Below are positions 14,664-35,829 of a stretch of 35,904 bases of DNA, piece after piece (position 1 is the stretch's first letter; every line of letters starts with the position of its first letter). A program made the translations under genes and the position numbers. The DNA is from Actinomycetota bacterium (lineage in GTDB: Bacteria; Actinomycetota; UBA4738). A model generated the notes under the pieces. The model did no database searches and was not told the DNA's origin. It was given only the letters and a program-made list of their open reading frames with translations. The DNA is taken from contig VAYJ01000004.1 in the NCBI GenBank assembly GCA_005888465.1, positions 2,524 through 38,427 on the forward strand, read 5' to 3'.

Positions 14664-15836
14664 TCACTCGAACTTTCCGGAGCGGACGTCGAAGGGCTCC
14701 CACTTGCCGTTCTTGAGAATGGCGGCCGGGATCGGCATGATGATCTGCCGCTTGATGCCGTAGGCCTTCTCCCCGCCCCACGACGCCGCGCCGAACGGAT
14801 GCGCCGCGTAGGTGGAGCCCGCGAGCGCGTCGGCCACCTTCATCGTGTCGAAGGTGCCGGCCTTGACGATGGTGTCGACCAGCCAGCGGGCGGCGCCGTA
14901 CGTCTCCCACAGCGTGCCCGGAGCCGCCTCGCCGTACTTCTTCTGGTGCCGCTCGGCGAGCTCCGTGTAGAGCTTCGTCGGCGGGCTCGCCCAGATGCGG
15001 AGCGCGATGATGTTCTCGCCCGCCTTGCCCGCGATGTCGGAGATGGCCTTGGCTTCGAGCACGGCGGTGGAGTTCACGAAGTAGCCGTTGTAGCCCAGCT
15101 CTCGCGCTTGCTTGGCGATCAGCGCGATCGATCCCGTCGGCGAGCCGTCGGTATCGATGATATCGGGCTTCTGCGCGATCAGGCGCAGCAGCGCCGGCCC
15201 GAAGTCGCGGGCGCCACGCTCGTAGTACTCGTCGCCGACGAAGGACACGCCCTTGGCCTTGAGCTTCTCCACCTCAGCCTTGATCGCCTTCGCGTCGTTC
15301 TTCCCCAGCTCGTCATTGGGGCCGAGGAAGGCGATGCGCTTGCCGCCGAGCTTCTCGGCGATGGCCACCGCGTACGCCTGGTATAGCTGGTCGGACGACG
15401 CCATGATGCGGAACGCGGTCGGGTTGTCCGGGTTCGTGATCTGCCGGCCGGCGGCGGCGAAGGCGAAGTCGAGGAACCCGGTCTCCCGGATGATCGGCAG
15501 GATCGGCGGGTGCACGCCGGCGCCGATGATGACGCCGTACTTGACGTTGTCGTTGTAGACGGCGCGGTTGATCGCGGCCACCGTCTTGTCCGGCGCGTAC
15601 ACGGTATCGTAGGTCACGACCTCCAGCTTGTATTTCTCCCCCGCCACGGCGAAGACGCCGACGTCCTCGGCGGCCAGCTCGAGACCGCGCTGCACACCGA
15701 GGCCGAACGCCGCCGCCGGCCCCGAGACGGGGACGATGGCGCCGACCTTGAACGACTTCTGCGCGTGGACTCCAGCCGGCAGGCCGACCACGGCGAGCGC
15801 AACCAGCAAGACGAGGGCAAGCATCGGACGTCTCAT
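14664..15836 (-). CDS. Branched-chain amino acid/amide-type ABC transporter substrate-binding protein
   Basis: Signal peptide MRRPMLALVLLVALAVVGLPAGVHAQ; KVGAIVPVSGPAAAFGLGVQRGLELAAEDV. Confidence 0.92.
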   Translation of the reverse strand: MRRPMLALVLLVALAVVGLPAGVHAQKSFKVGAIVPVSGPAAAFGLGVQRGLELAAEDVGVFAVAGEKYKLEVVTYDTVYAPDKTVAAINRAVYNDNVKYGVIIGAGVHPPILPIIRETGFLDFAFAAAGRQITNPDNPTAFRIMASSDQLYQAYAVAIAEKLGGKRIAFLGPNDELGKNDAKAIKAEVEKLKAKGVSFVGDEYYERGARDFGPALLRLIAQKPDIIDTDGSPTGSIALIAKQARELGYNGYFVNSTAVLEAKAISDIAGKAGENIIALRIWASPPTKLYTELAERHQKKYGEAAPGTLWETYGAARWLVDTIVKAGTFDTMKVADALAGSTYAAHPFGAASWGGEKAYGIKRQIIMPIPAAILKNGKWEPFDVRSGKFE

Positions 15837-16558
15837 GCGGAGTCTCCATTGTGGATGCATGCGTTCAGCACCTCGAGGAAGTACTCGATCTCGGCCTCGC
15901 CCACCGCCGTGGACAGGCACCCGAGCCCGGTCGGCGCCAGCAGGATGCCGTGGTCGATGAGCTCGCGATAGAGCTGGTCGGACGACGCCATGATGCGGAA
16001 CGCGGTCGGGTTGTCCGGGTTCGTGATCTGCCGGCCGGCGGCGGCGAAGGCGAAGTCGAGGAACCCGGTCTCCCGGATGATCGGCAGGATCGGCGGGTGC
16101 ACGCCGGCGCCGATGATGACGCCGTACTTGACGTTGTCGTTGTAGACGGCGCGGTTGATCGCGGCCACCGTCTTGTCCGGCGCGTACACGGTATCGTAGG
16201 TCACGACCTCCAGCTTGTATTTCTCCCCCGCCACGGCGAAGACGCCGACGTCCTCGGCGGCCAGCTCGAGACCGCGCTGCACACCGAGGCCGAACGCCGC
16301 CGCCGGCCCCGAGACGGGGACGATGGCGCCGACCTTGAACGACTTCTGCGCGTGGACTCCAGCCGGCAGGCCGACCACGGCGAGCGCAACCAGCAAGACG
16401 AGGGCAAGCATCGGACGTCTCATGCGGAGTCTCCATTGTGGATGCATGCGTTCAGCACCTCGAGGAAGTACTCGATCTCGGCCTCGCCCACCGCCGTGGA
16501 CAGGCACCCGAGCCCGGTCGGCGCCAGCAGGATGCCGTGGTCGATGAGCTTGCGATAG
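15385..16558. repeat. 587-bp near-identical tandem duplication (15385-15971 and 15972-16558)
   Basis: Constant offset of 587 (15391/15978, 15836/16423, 15841/16428); identical shadow ORFs in both copies; one difference noticed (15964 c vs 16551 t). Confidence 0.93.
15833..16423 (-). CDS. Chimeric ORF: SBP N-terminal half fused in frame to aminotransferase C-terminus
   Basis: MRRPMLALV...FRIMASSDQLY|RELIDHGILLAPTGLGCLSTAVGEAEIEYFLEVLNACIHNGDSA*. Confidence 0.75.
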   Translation of the reverse strand: MRRPMLALVLLVALAVVGLPAGVHAQKSFKVGAIVPVSGPAAAFGLGVQRGLELAAEDVGVFAVAGEKYKLEVVTYDTVYAPDKTVAAINRAVYNDNVKYGVIIGAGVHPPILPIIRETGFLDFAFAAAGRQITNPDNPTAFRIMASSDQLYRELIDHGILLAPTGLGCLSTAVGEAEIEYFLEVLNACIHNGDSA

Positions 16559-17766
16559 AGCCGGTCCAGCCGGGCGCGCTCGGCCTCCGAGGCGACGCCG
16601 CTGCGGTAGTCAACGAACGCGCGCTCGGCCGGGTGCAGACGGAAGAGCGAGCCCATGCCCGTCACGGCGCCTGGCACGCCGGCGCGCTCGAGACACGCCT
16701 GCACGCCGCTCCGGAGCTTGCCGCCCACCTCGTCGAGCCGGTCGAACGCCTTCTCGTCCATCAGCTGCATCGCGGCGAGACCGGCCGCCATCGTCACCGG
16801 GTTAGCGTTGAACGTGCCGCCGTGGGGGACGAGCGGCTTGCCGCCCCGCGGATCGAACACGGCCATCACGTCCGCGCGCCCGCCGACGGCGCCGACGGGA
16901 AAACCGCCGCCGATGATCTTGCCTAGGCTCGTGAGGTCCGGCCGGATACCGAACACGCCCTGGGCGCCGTGGTAGCCGAGCCGGAAGCTGATGACCTCGT
17001 CAAAGATGAGGCAGATCCCGTGCACCGCCGTCACCTCGCGGATCGCGCGGAGGAAGTCGGCGCGCGCGGGGATCAAGCCGACTCGATTCGGCATCGGGTC
17101 GATGAGGACGGCGGCGAGGTTCTTCGCCTCTCGCTCGATGCGCGCCACTGCCAGCTCGGTCCGGTTGAACGGCAGCACGACCACGTCCTCGAGCACCGAG
17201 GCGGGCGTCCCCTTCGAGTACGGTATGGACGCCGGCGCCTCCAGCGGTCCCCACTCGTCGGGTCCGGAGCCGAGGCTGACCTCCGCCCAGTCGTACGAGC
17301 CGTGGTACGCGCCCTCGAACTTCGCGATCTTGGGCCGGCCGGTGAACCCGCGCGCGGCCTTGATGGCCATCATCACGGCTTCGCTGCCGGAGTTCGCGAA
17401 GCGCACCTGGTCCACGCCGTCAAGGCGGTCGACGATGAGCGCGGCGAGATCGATCTCCTCCGCCGTGGGCAGGGGGAACGCCGAGCCGCGCGCCAGCCGG
17501 CGGGTGGCGGCCTCGGTCACGGCGGGGTGGGCGTGCCCGTGGATCAGTGCCGTGTAGTTGTTGAGGAGATCAAGGCGCCGGTCGCCGTCGACGTCGATGA
17601 TCCAGCAGCCCTCGCCCTCCGCCGCGTAGATCGGCCGGGGCGCCATGTAAACGGTCGTGCGGGAGTTGCCGCCGGGCAGCACGCCCTGCGCGCGCTCCCA
17701 CAGCTTCGCCGACCGGGAGTCCGGCCTCGCATACGCCCGCGTCTCGGTGATCGTCCTCAGCGCCAT
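16420..17766 (-). CDS. Class III (glutamate-1-semialdehyde-2,1-aminomutase-like) PLP aminotransferase
   Basis: NSGSEAVMMAIKAARGFTGRPKIAKFEGAYHG, LIFDEVISFRLGYHGAQ, SLGKIIGGGFPVGAVGG. Confidence 0.92.
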   Translation of the reverse strand: MALRTITETRAYARPDSRSAKLWERAQGVLPGGNSRTTVYMAPRPIYAAEGEGCWIIDVDGDRRLDLLNNYTALIHGHAHPAVTEAATRRLARGSAFPLPTAEEIDLAALIVDRLDGVDQVRFANSGSEAVMMAIKAARGFTGRPKIAKFEGAYHGSYDWAEVSLGSGPDEWGPLEAPASIPYSKGTPASVLEDVVVLPFNRTELAVARIEREAKNLAAVLIDPMPNRVGLIPARADFLRAIREVTAVHGICLIFDEVISFRLGYHGAQGVFGIRPDLTSLGKIIGGGFPVGAVGGRADVMAVFDPRGGKPLVPHGGTFNANPVTMAAGLAAMQLMDEKAFDRLDEVGGKLRSGVQACLERAGVPGAVTGMGSLFRLHPAERAFVDYRSGVASEAERARLDRLYRKLIDHGILLAPTGLGCLSTAVGEAEIEYFLEVLNACIHNGDSA

Positions 17767-17801: not shown

Positions 17802-19556
17802 TCAGCGCCGGGCGCGCGACTCGCGCAGGCGCGCCGTGGCGCCGACGTCGACGGCGGGCGGAGCGCCTCGCAGCACCACGCCGTAGTCGCGCTCGGCGTC
17901 CTCCACCGTGAAGTATCCGCGCGCGACGTCGCGGCACACCAGCGCGGGGTCACGGTCGAGCGGATCACCGTAGCCGCCGCCGCCCGGCGTGCGCACCGTG
18001 ATCAGATCGCCCGCCTTCACGCGGATGTCTTCGTCCTTCGACCAGTGGGGCGATATGTACGTGCGCCCGTCCTGCTCCAGGACCACCTCGTTGCGCGCGC
18101 CGTCGTGACCGCCGAACAGACCGGGAGGAGCGACGCGCCCGTGGTCCATCAGGTACGACAGCAGCCCCTCGCCGCGGCAGATGCGGACGCGATAGTCGAC
18201 GCCGAACCCGCCGCGCGTCTTTCCGGCGCCGCCCGACCGCTCGCGCAGCGCGTACTGCTCGAAGCGCAAGGGATAGTGCTGCTCCAGCACCTCCGTCGGC
18301 TGTGTCTTCGAGATCCCGATCGTCGAGCAGCCGTTCGTGAGCCCGTCATTGTCCAGGTGGCCGCCGTACCCGCCGCCGGAGAACACGTACATGATGTAGT
18401 GCCGCTCCTTCAGCGGGTCGTAACCGCCGAGCGTGAGGTTGCCGCTCGTGCCGGCGGGCGCCGCGAACAGGTCGTCGGGGATCGCGCGCGCCAGCGTGGT
18501 GAAGACACTCTCGGCGATGCGCGCGCTGACCTCGGCCGCGCAGCCGGAGACGGGGCTCGGGTACCGCGCGTAGAGGAACGTCTTGTGCGGGTCCGCGATG
18601 TGGAGGGGCTCGAAGCACCCGGCATTGATCGGCACGTCGGGGAAGATGTGCTTGATGGCCAAGTACACCGCCGCCTTCGTCGTCGCGATGACGCTGTTGA
18701 GCGGCCCGCGGCACGGCGGGCTCGACTCCGAGAAGTCGAAGTGGAGATCGCTGCCGTTCTTCTTGATGCGCAAGCGGATCGCCAGCGGGTCGGGCCCGAT
18801 GCCGTCGGAATCGAGGAAGGCCTCGCCGCCGTAGATGCCATCGGGGATCTTCGCGATGTGCGCTCGCATCATCTGCTCGGAGCGGTGGCGCAGCTCCGTC
18901 ACGCACGCGGTCACGATGTCCTCGCCGTAGCGGTCGATCAGCGCCGTGAGCCGCTTCTCGCCCACCGTGAGAGCGGCCACCTGCGCCTTGATGTCGCCGA
19001 TCCGCTCCTCCGGGACGCGGATGTTCGCCAGGATGATCGACAGGATGTCCTCGTCCATCACGCCCTCGCGAAACAGCTTCACGGGGGGCAGGCGGAGGCC
19101 CTCCTGCTGGACTTCCGTGGCGCGCGACGAGAAGCCGCCCGGCACCGAGCCGCCGGTATCGGGCCAGTGGCCCGTGTTCGAGAGGTATGACCAGAGCCGG
19201 CCGCGATAGAAGAACGGCTTCACCATCTTGACATCCATCAGGTGCGTACCGCCCGCGTACGGGTCGTTGATGATGAAGATGTCGCCGGGCTGCAAGCTCT
19301 CGTCGCCGCGCTGGGCGACGTGCTCGATCACCGCTCGTGTCGTGAACTGCATGACGCCGACGAAAATCGGCAGCCCCAGCTCCCCCTGTGCGATGACCTC
19401 GCCGTTGTCCTTGGAGTAGATGCCGTCGGAGCGGTCGAAGCCCTCCGAGATGACAGGCGAAAACGCCGCCCGCTCGAAGGTGAGGTCCATCTCGGTCGCG
19501 ACCTGCTGCAGGCCGTTCTGGACGACGACGAGCGTGACCGGGTCGATCGGCTTCAT
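17802..19556 (-). CDS. hyuB: Hydantoinase B / oxoprolinase family protein
   Basis: MKPIDPVTLVVVQNGLQQVATEMDLTFERAAFSPVISEGFDRSDGIYS; GDIFIINDPYAGGTHLMDVKMVKPFF. Confidence 0.93.
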   Translation of the reverse strand: MKPIDPVTLVVVQNGLQQVATEMDLTFERAAFSPVISEGFDRSDGIYSKDNGEVIAQGELGLPIFVGVMQFTTRAVIEHVAQRGDESLQPGDIFIINDPYAGGTHLMDVKMVKPFFYRGRLWSYLSNTGHWPDTGGSVPGGFSSRATEVQQEGLRLPPVKLFREGVMDEDILSIILANIRVPEERIGDIKAQVAALTVGEKRLTALIDRYGEDIVTACVTELRHRSEQMMRAHIAKIPDGIYGGEAFLDSDGIGPDPLAIRLRIKKNGSDLHFDFSESSPPCRGPLNSVIATTKAAVYLAIKHIFPDVPINAGCFEPLHIADPHKTFLYARYPSPVSGCAAEVSARIAESVFTTLARAIPDDLFAAPAGTSGNLTLGGYDPLKERHYIMYVFSGGGYGGHLDNDGLTNGCSTIGISKTQPTEVLEQHYPLRFEQYALRERSGGAGKTRGGFGVDYRVRICRGEGLLSYLMDHGRVAPPGLFGGHDGARNEVVLEQDGRTYISPHWSKDEDIRVKAGDLITVRTPGGGGYGDPLDRDPALVCRDVARGYFTVEDAERDYGVVLRGAPPAVDVGATARLRESRARR

Positions 19557-21551
19557 GCGACTCCTCGCACGGAGATGATGAGGTTGCCTAACGCGTCGAC
19601 CTCGACCCGGTCGCCCGGCTCGACCACCGTGGTCGAGTCGAGCTGCTCCACGATGCGGCGTGTCGCGCCACGCGCCGTCGAACCACGCCCGGCGGCTCCC
19701 GGCTTTCGCGTCGGCCAGCGCGCCGCGTGCTGGTGCCGCCGCGAGCCCGTCCAGCGAGACCGGGGGACGGCGGCCGATGACCGCGGTGCGCAGGCTCATC
19801 ACGAGCGCGCGCATCTGCTTCAGCTCGACCTCGAAGCGTTCCCAGTACGCGCGCTCGAACCCCAGCAGGAGGTCGTCGCGCTCGAAGTTGGTGCGCGGGA
19901 TCGTGACCGTCAGCACGTGCGTCTGCCCGGCGAACTGCATGTCGGCCTGGTGCAGCACGCTGACCGTCTCGACCTCCACGCCCTCGGAGGCGAGCATGCG
20001 CTTGCCTTCCGCCACCTGCGCGGCCAGGATCGCGCGCGCCTCGTCGACGTCCATGCGGCCGACGTCCTGGTTGATCGTCCGCACGAAGTCGTGGCGGACG
20101 TCAGCCACGAGGCAGCCGAGCGCGGAGGTGATCCCGGGCCGCGCCGGCACCAGCACCTTGGGGATCACCAGCTCCCGCGCGAGCGCGACGGCGTGGAGCG
20201 GTCCGGCGCCGCCGAACGCGAACAGGATGAAGTCGCGCGGATCATAGCCGCGCTGCAACGACACGAGACGGATCGCGCCCGCCATTTTGTCGTTGGCCAC
20301 GCGGATGATGGCGGCGGCGACCTCGTCGGGGCCGAAGCCGAGGTGCGCGCCGATCTTCTTGTCGAAGATGTCCCGCACACGATCGAGCTCCGCCGCGCCC
20401 GCGACGCCGAGCAGCCCGTCCGGGTTCAGACGGCCGAGCAGGAGATTGGCGTCGGTCGTGGTCGGCTCGTCGCCACCGCGGCGGTAGCAGATCGGCCCCG
20501 GCTCGGCGCCGGCGCTCTCCGGTCCCACCTGCAGGATGCCGGCGGAGTTCACGCGCGCGATGGAGCCGCCGCCGGCGCCGATCGTGTGGATATCGATCAT
20601 CGGCACGCGGACGGGCAGCCCGTAGCCCATCTCCTTGTCGGCGGTCACGGCCGGCACGCCGTCGCGGATCACGCCGACATCGAAGCTGGTGCCGCCCATG
20701 TCGCACGAGATGACGTCGCGATAGCCCGCGGTGAGCGCGGTGTAGGCGGCGGCCTTGACCCCGGCCGCCGGCCCCGACATGAGCGTGTTGACGGCGTGGC
20801 GAGCGGCGACGTCGACCGACATGGTCCCGCCATTGCCTTGCATGACCAGCAGCTCGCGCCCGCAGCCCTCGCGCCGCAGCTCACCCGCGAGCGCTCGCAG
20901 GTACCGGTCGATCACCGGCTGCACGTAGCCGTTGATCGCCGCCGTGGAGCCGCGCTCGAACTCACGGTACTCGGGTAGAAGCTCCGCGCCGACGGTGACA
21001 TAAGCGTTCGGCCATACCGCGGCCGCGATCTCGCGCGCCCTCCGCTCGTGCCGGTCGTTGACGTAGGAGTGGATGAAGTGGATGACGAGCGCCTCGGCGC
21101 CGGCCGCGCGCAGCGCCTCGGCAGCGCGCCGCACCGCCTCCTCGTCGAGCGTGACCACCACTTCCCCTTCGGCATCCATGCGCTCGGGCACCTCGATGCG
21201 AAGATCGCGCGGGATGAGGGGCTCGAACGTTCCCTTGAGGCCGTACGGTGTGGGACGCGTGCGGCGTCCCAGCTCCAGCACGTCCCGGAAGCCGCCGGTG
21301 GTGATGAGCCCCACCACCGCGCCCTTGCGCTCGAGCAGCGCGTTCGTCGCCGTCGTCGTGCCGTGAACTAGGGCTTTGATCGCCGCCGGCGCGATGCCCA
21401 CCTCGCGCAGCGCGGCCAGCACGCCTTCCGCCTGATTGCGCACGGTCGTCGGGACCTTGGCGATGCGCACCTGCCCGGTAGCCTCGTCCATTAGGATGAG
21501 GTCGGTGAAGGTGCCGCCTACGTCGACGCCGATCAGATTCGTGGCGGCCAT
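19553..21551 (-). CDS. hyuA: Hydantoinase A / oxoprolinase family protein, C-terminus frameshifted into the hyuB frame
   Basis: LIGVDVGGTFTDLILMDEATGQVRIAKVPTT; DMGGTSFDVGV; FAFGGAGPLHA; the alternative frame encodes RIVEQLDSTTVVEPGDRVEVDALGNLIISVRGVA*. Confidence 0.85.
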
Positions 21552-21775
21552 GACTGCGGTGACCTCGTGGCTCATAGGAACCGGGAATTCCGATATGGAC
21601 CGATCGCCGCCCCGGTGACGGCGTCCACCGAGCTGGCAGCCACTCTGGAACCCCTGGCGCCGGTTCAGCCCGTTGCCTCCGAGTGTGGTCGCTCCGACCG
21701 TGTCGTGCAAAGACACCGCCGCCGCGGCCCCCTCTCGCTGCTCATTCCCCCCGCTCCCTGTGCAGGACTCAGGAA

Positions 21776-21943
21776 TCAGGTCGGATACGCCGCGAGCAGC
21801 TCGATACGCCCGAGGATCTTCCCAAAGAGGCGCTGCGTCAAGTGGCTTTCGGCCAGCTGGAGGATGAAGTACGGAGCATGCCGGATCAGGCGGCCGCCGG
21901 TCTTGAACGGCCGCTGTTGCGAGCTCGTCAGCGACCAATTCTG
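21776..21943 (-). pseudogene. IS1380-family-type transposase C-terminal remnant
   Basis: Reverse-strand reading gives QNWSLTSSQQRPFKTGGRLIRHAPYFILQLAESHLTQRLFGKILGRIELLAAYPT*, matching the remembered C-terminal pattern of IS1380-type transposases. Confidence 0.75.
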
Positions 21944-22135
21944 AAACCCCGATTGGCCGATGGGTCGAGCGAGATCCGAGCACGATGGGTACTGTGTATT
22001 TTAGGTCCGGCGGCTCCCGCAACCTCCCCGGGTTGAGCGGTGACACGGGGTGCACTCCAACGCGGTCGCATTCGCTCGCGCGAGCGTCGACATGGATCAT
22101 CGCCTCCTGGATCGACCTTAAGAGGGGCCGTGTAC

Positions 22136-22161
22136 TGTTCGTAACCGCTCGGTTGCGAACA
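22136..22161 (+). repeat. Dispersed 26-bp near-palindrome, copy 2
   Basis: TGTTCGTAACCG CT CGGTTGCGAACA. Confidence 0.9.
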
Positions 22162-22338
22162 ACCGGCGAGGCGGAGCCCGAATTAAGCGCCACGATTTCG
22201 GCGCCCTTCAGTCGGCCGCAAGCTTCTTTGACCGTTGGGGCAGTGACCCAAAGGTTGGCCTTCAGATGATCTTCAAAAGACCTATAACGCCGTTAGGCTA
22301 CGCTCCCAATCTCTGTGGCTTGACGGCGCCCGACCCGG

Positions 22339-35575: not shown

Positions 35576-35592
35576 TCAGGACTGCTCCGATG

Positions 35593-35618
35593 TGTTCGTA
35601 ACCGGTCGGTTGCGAACA
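35593..35618 (+). repeat. Dispersed 26-bp near-palindrome, copy 3
   Basis: TGTTCGTAACCG GT CGGTTGCGAACA. Confidence 0.9.
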
Positions 35619-35829
35619 GCTAGAGATATTCAGCTACGTGGTCTCTCCGAGAATCGGCGCTAGTAGCCAGTAGTCGGCCGGTTGAAGCGCCAATCAGACA
35701 GCCTTTCGAGATGCCACATCGAGGACGAAGAGTCCGAGACGACGGCACTGAGTTCACGCCCTAGGCCAGCCGGATCGCGAGGATTATTCACATTCTTCCT
35801 AACTCCTGAAAAGGGGGGACGTTAAAGGC

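Follow-up and report, generated by a model that had tools for sequence, protein, structure and literature searches.

A 587-bp stretch that crosses the junction between an aminotransferase gene and a periplasmic binding-protein gene stands twice, head to tail, in a metagenome-derived draft genome. With modest confidence, and judging from sequence comparisons, we attribute this repeat to a local assembly error in which paths from near-identical strains were left unmerged. The source genome, with 89.7% completeness and 4.0% contamination, comprises 296 contigs totalling 2.77 Mb, and the window, that is, the whole stretch of 35,904 nucleotides analysed here, corresponds to positions 2524-38427 of its contig C238.

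The repeat unit and its two copies

The unit and the one position at which its copies differ are as follows:

15385..15971, copy 1 of the 587-bp unit, made of the N-terminal part of the binding-protein gene and the C-terminal end of the aminotransferase gene
15972..16558, copy 2 of the unit, defined by comparison at an offset of 587
15964, sole substitution between the copies, C here and T at 16551 (GAG, Glu, in the chimeric reading frame; AAG, Lys, in the aminotransferase)

The near-identical tandem duplication with a single substitution, as claimed in an earlier note on this DNA, holds at all 587 positions (586/587 identical between the copies), and both the repeat and its substitution are established. 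The substitution had been placed about 8 nt from the breakpoint, and it does lie 7-8 nt from the joint; the AGC microhomology described at the breakpoint is likewise present, at 15385-15387, 15972-15974 and 16559-16561. Across the whole window, every repeated 25-mer (555/555) falls on the single offset of 587. Tandem Repeats Finder, run with a period limit of 500, did not list the unit because its period exceeds that limit. Within the source genome the unit matches only its own two copies (C238:17908-18494 and 18495-19081).

Three candidate explanations could be set aside. A chance repeat is ruled out by the 586/587 identity of the copies and by a 25-mer agreement far past chance. An origin from a mobile element or plasmid is ruled out as well, given that plasmids show no match, that the genome holds a single locus and that the unit is ordinary coding sequence from two genes. 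Nor is the unit a repeated protein domain, since it crosses a gene junction.

The window also carries a 41-nt element in three dispersed copies that are 68-85% alike (1070-1110, 22124-22164 and 35581-35621). Its core, TGTTCGTAACCG..CGGTTG.GAACA, is an imperfect palindrome with the appearance of an operator site.

Genes at the repeat and the chimeric reading frame

Three reading frames on the minus strand cover the repeat:

14664..15836, minus strand, intact periplasmic binding protein of the branched-chain-amino-acid type (Peripla_BP_6, PF13458), 390 aa
15833..16423, minus strand, chimeric ORF, 196 aa, an in-frame fusion of about 152 binding-protein residues followed by the last ~43 aminotransferase residues
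16420..17766, minus strand, intact class-III aminotransferase, glutamate-1-semialdehyde-aminomutase-like (PF00202), 448 aa

The best NCBIfam matches of the aminotransferase are glutamate-1-semialdehyde aminomutase models, which score below their cut-off, and its next-best relative is from Rokuibacteriota, at 82%. The chimeric ORF opens with the binding protein's signal sequence and N-lobe and closes with the aminotransferase C-terminus. The ORF is bounded at both ends by ATGA overlaps; at 16420-16423 the aminotransferase TGA shares bases with the ATG of the frame that follows. A tandem duplication whose ends lie in two adjacent genes always keeps both whole and places a chimera between them. 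The chimera stays in frame because the joint lies in a segment that encodes D-[Q/R]-L-Y, with identical codon phase, in each of the two genes.

Among the aminotransferase loci of relatives that were compared, only the one on contig VBKO01000296.1 also carries this binding-protein gene, and no close homologue was found in genomes of the same order. At the residue affected by the substitution, a Rokubacteria homologue has Glu, as does the chimera. This Glu gives no polarity for 15964/16551, because the position is variable among 55 homologues and VBKO01000296.1 is gapped there.

A near-identical contig with a single copy

VBKO01000296.1 (7,689 bp; scaffold name 14_0927_12_40cm) belongs to the bin Deltaproteobacteria DP_11 and is 99.4-99.8% identical to window positions 12.7-21.05 kb over about 7.7 kb. 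Its binding protein agrees with that of the window at 390 of 390 residues, is present in a single copy and runs unbroken across the boundary at 15385; the single copy is established, as is a base difference next to that boundary, where the window has T at 15384 and the DP_11 contig has G. The joint between the copies was not found in this contig, in which a single N hides the following interval:

16481..16598, 118 bases represented by a single N in the DP_11 contig, covering the aminotransferase-side boundary at 16558

The chance that such a gap would cover a given boundary is about 1.5%, which suggests something structurally odd at this place in the population. Folding of 16480-16596 was not unusual (z 0.6-0.7), so that the break seen in the two assemblies is not attributed to a DNA hairpin.

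Outside 12.7-21.05 kb, nothing in the window has a near-identical counterpart in DP_11, and none was seen for a 15-kb piece of the longest sampled contig of the source genome, which indicates that the two bins are different organisms. At least one of them would thus carry the locus through misbinning or transfer, and one or both may be contaminated, given the presence of the locus in the bins of two organisms and the Rokuibacteriota relationship of the aminotransferase.

Homology at the joint and boundaries

The sequence crossing from one copy into the next is GCGATAGAGCTGGTCGG, and the three sites compared are:

15382..15392, binding-protein-side boundary, TATAGCTGGTC; in the DP_11 contig TAGAGCTGGTC, with G for T at 15384
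15969..15979, joint between the copies, TAGAGCTGGTC, with AGC (15972-15974) as exact common bases
16556..16566, aminotransferase-side boundary, TAGAGCCGGTC

Read on the plus strand, TATAGCTGGTC and TAGAGCCGGTC form an imperfect 11-nt match at 9 of 11 positions, or at 10 of 11 if the DP_11 base is used at 15384; with the same base the joint would have 6 exact common nt (TAGAGC) in place of 3. Among random pairs of positions in the window, at least 3 exact common bases occur in 7.7% and at least 6 in 0.36%, while the best 11-nt match reaches at least 9 in 0.39% and at least 10 in 0.04%. A short homology common to both boundaries and the joint is thus present, in its imperfect 9/11 form at p ~0.004.

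Other local anomalies in the assembly

On the same contig, the window differs from its relative at one further place:

19655..19656, absence of 50 bp that the DP_11 contig has, with a frameshift in hydantoinase A and loss of the match to its C-terminal domain

The domain in question, Hydant_A_C, is found in the DP_11 contig and absent from the window. The missing bases probably reflect either an error of assembly or a genuine deletion. The frameshift fuses hydantoinase A into hydantoinase B (17802-22193, minus strand), so that the two are read as one frame of 1463 aa.

We surveyed about 1.13 Mb of the source genome, sampled as stretches, for local repeats, using 651 kb of other loci for comparison. 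The former yielded three direct repeats of more than 150 bp with near-identical copies and the latter none, numbers too small for significance. Besides the 587-bp repeat, contig C8 (stretch L150) has an exact 195-bp piece of fmt, the methionyl-tRNA formyltransferase gene, about 1 kb away from its other copy and within a damaged priA (copies at 16328-16522 and 17391-17585 of the stretch); the PriA match stops near position 500 of 708, which suggests wrong local joining. Contig C237 (stretch L195, 4873-5042 and 5876-6046) has a 171-bp copy, 98.8% identical and about 1 kb upstream of its source gene, that comprises the promoter and the first ~33 codons of that gene.

Origin of the repeat

Under the reading that we favour, near-identical strains in a soil population would have supplied two paths across this 587-bp unit. 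The first would have stopped just beyond a strain difference on the aminotransferase side, and the second would have begun right beside one on the binding-protein side. The paths would have been linked end to end through a few common bases without being merged, and the true locus would hold the aminotransferase, an ATGA overlap and the binding protein, in one copy each. If the strain paths began and broke off at variants, differences would be expected at both ends of the unit, and they are present there: position 15384 lies 1 nt outside the left boundary and 15964/16551 lies 7 nt inside the right. The near-identical DP_11 contig, with its single copy and no joint, argues in the same direction, as do the 50-bp absence in hydantoinase A on the same contig and, in the same assembly, the fmt piece in priA and the 171-bp copy; we infer that the assembler made the joint. 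Work on the curation of metagenome assemblies (PMC7111523, Genome Res. 2020) describes redundant sequence that persists at the junctions of overlapping contigs and, in rare cases, the artificial concatenation of identical segments hundreds of bases long. Against an error, however, the joint contains no Ns, whereas ordinary joins in this assembly are written as runs of N; it lies in a 9/11 imperfect repeat of a kind met at only about 0.4% of random joints (10/11 and 0.04% with the DP_11 base); the one-N gap of DP_11 coincides with a boundary of the unit; and the C at 15964 means that the joint side is not a plain copy.

These same features lend weight to a real and recent tandem duplication in vivo, which we regard as a serious possibility while doubting it. 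Illegitimate recombination or template slippage between the imperfect direct repeats TAGAGC[C/T]GGTC, 587 bp apart, would have duplicated the gene junction, left both genes whole and added the chimeric ORF between them, and the duplication would probably be polymorphic, because recombination readily removes perfect tandem repeats of this kind. A joint homology above chance is consistent with such an event, more so with the DP_11 base in place (6 exact nt, p ~0.0036; 10/11, p ~0.0004), as are the seamless joint, the break in the DP_11 contig at the aminotransferase-side boundary, a joint-adjacent substitution of the sort that error-prone repair could leave, and the lack of any other tandem repeat of such size in the 1.13 Mb sampled from the assembly. 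On the other hand, the near-identical DP_11 contig is single-copy, the assembly has other local errors or anomalies, and with the window's own bases the joint has no more than 3 exact common nt (p ~0.08). A chimeric library molecule, formed by template switching at the short repeat during amplification and followed by an assembler that walked the loop once, would also account for the short homology and for a substitution confined to the joint side, but it would require an infrequent chimera, linking two positions within a single locus, to pass the assembly filters, and no direct support for it emerged among the analyses, so that we consider it very improbable. Equally remote is the proposal that a real duplication, polymorphic in the soil population, gave rise only recently to a secreted chimera of binding-protein N-lobe and aminotransferase tail, translationally coupled and lying between the two intact genes, a new gene at birth whose register was provided by the common D-x-L-Y codon motif. 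The weights expressed here are a matter of judgement and were not computed.

The earlier note had left the choice between a real microhomology-mediated duplication and an artefact; both survive, with the balance moved slightly towards the artefact by the single-copy DP_11 contig, the deletion in hydantoinase A and the fmt copy in priA, while the in vivo event is kept alive by a joint homology better than chance. The repeat is thus most likely an assembly error and otherwise an ordinary tandem duplication at short homology, neither of which is remarkable. If it is an error, a false chimeric gene stands in a public genome, which calls for caution, and the damaged priA and frameshifted hydantoinase A of the same assembly should not be taken as biology. 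If it is real, it adds a further example, expected and ordinary, of a short-repeat duplication that spares both genes and adds a fusion ORF.

Comparison with known systems

Tandem duplications form at short direct repeats by illegitimate recombination and by RecA-independent slippage. The 587-bp repeat resembles them in its head-to-tail copies, its one novel joint with a few common bases, and its intact flanking genes with a chimeric ORF in the middle; it departs from them in that the near-identical DP_11 contig is single-copy and in that the repeat is known as assembled sequence. Chimeric genes can be born by duplication across a gene junction, and here too the N-terminal portion encoded by the downstream gene continues in frame into the C-terminal portion encoded by the upstream one. 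Unlike such newborn genes, however, the predicted product would join half a binding-protein lobe to ~43 aminotransferase residues and would contain no complete domain. Local errors of metagenome assemblies (PMC7111523) differ from the present case, whose joint is without Ns and has a short imperfect repeat, but they share with it the repetition of hundreds of near-identical bases where overlapping paths were joined, and the occurrence of another apparent local anomaly in the same contig.
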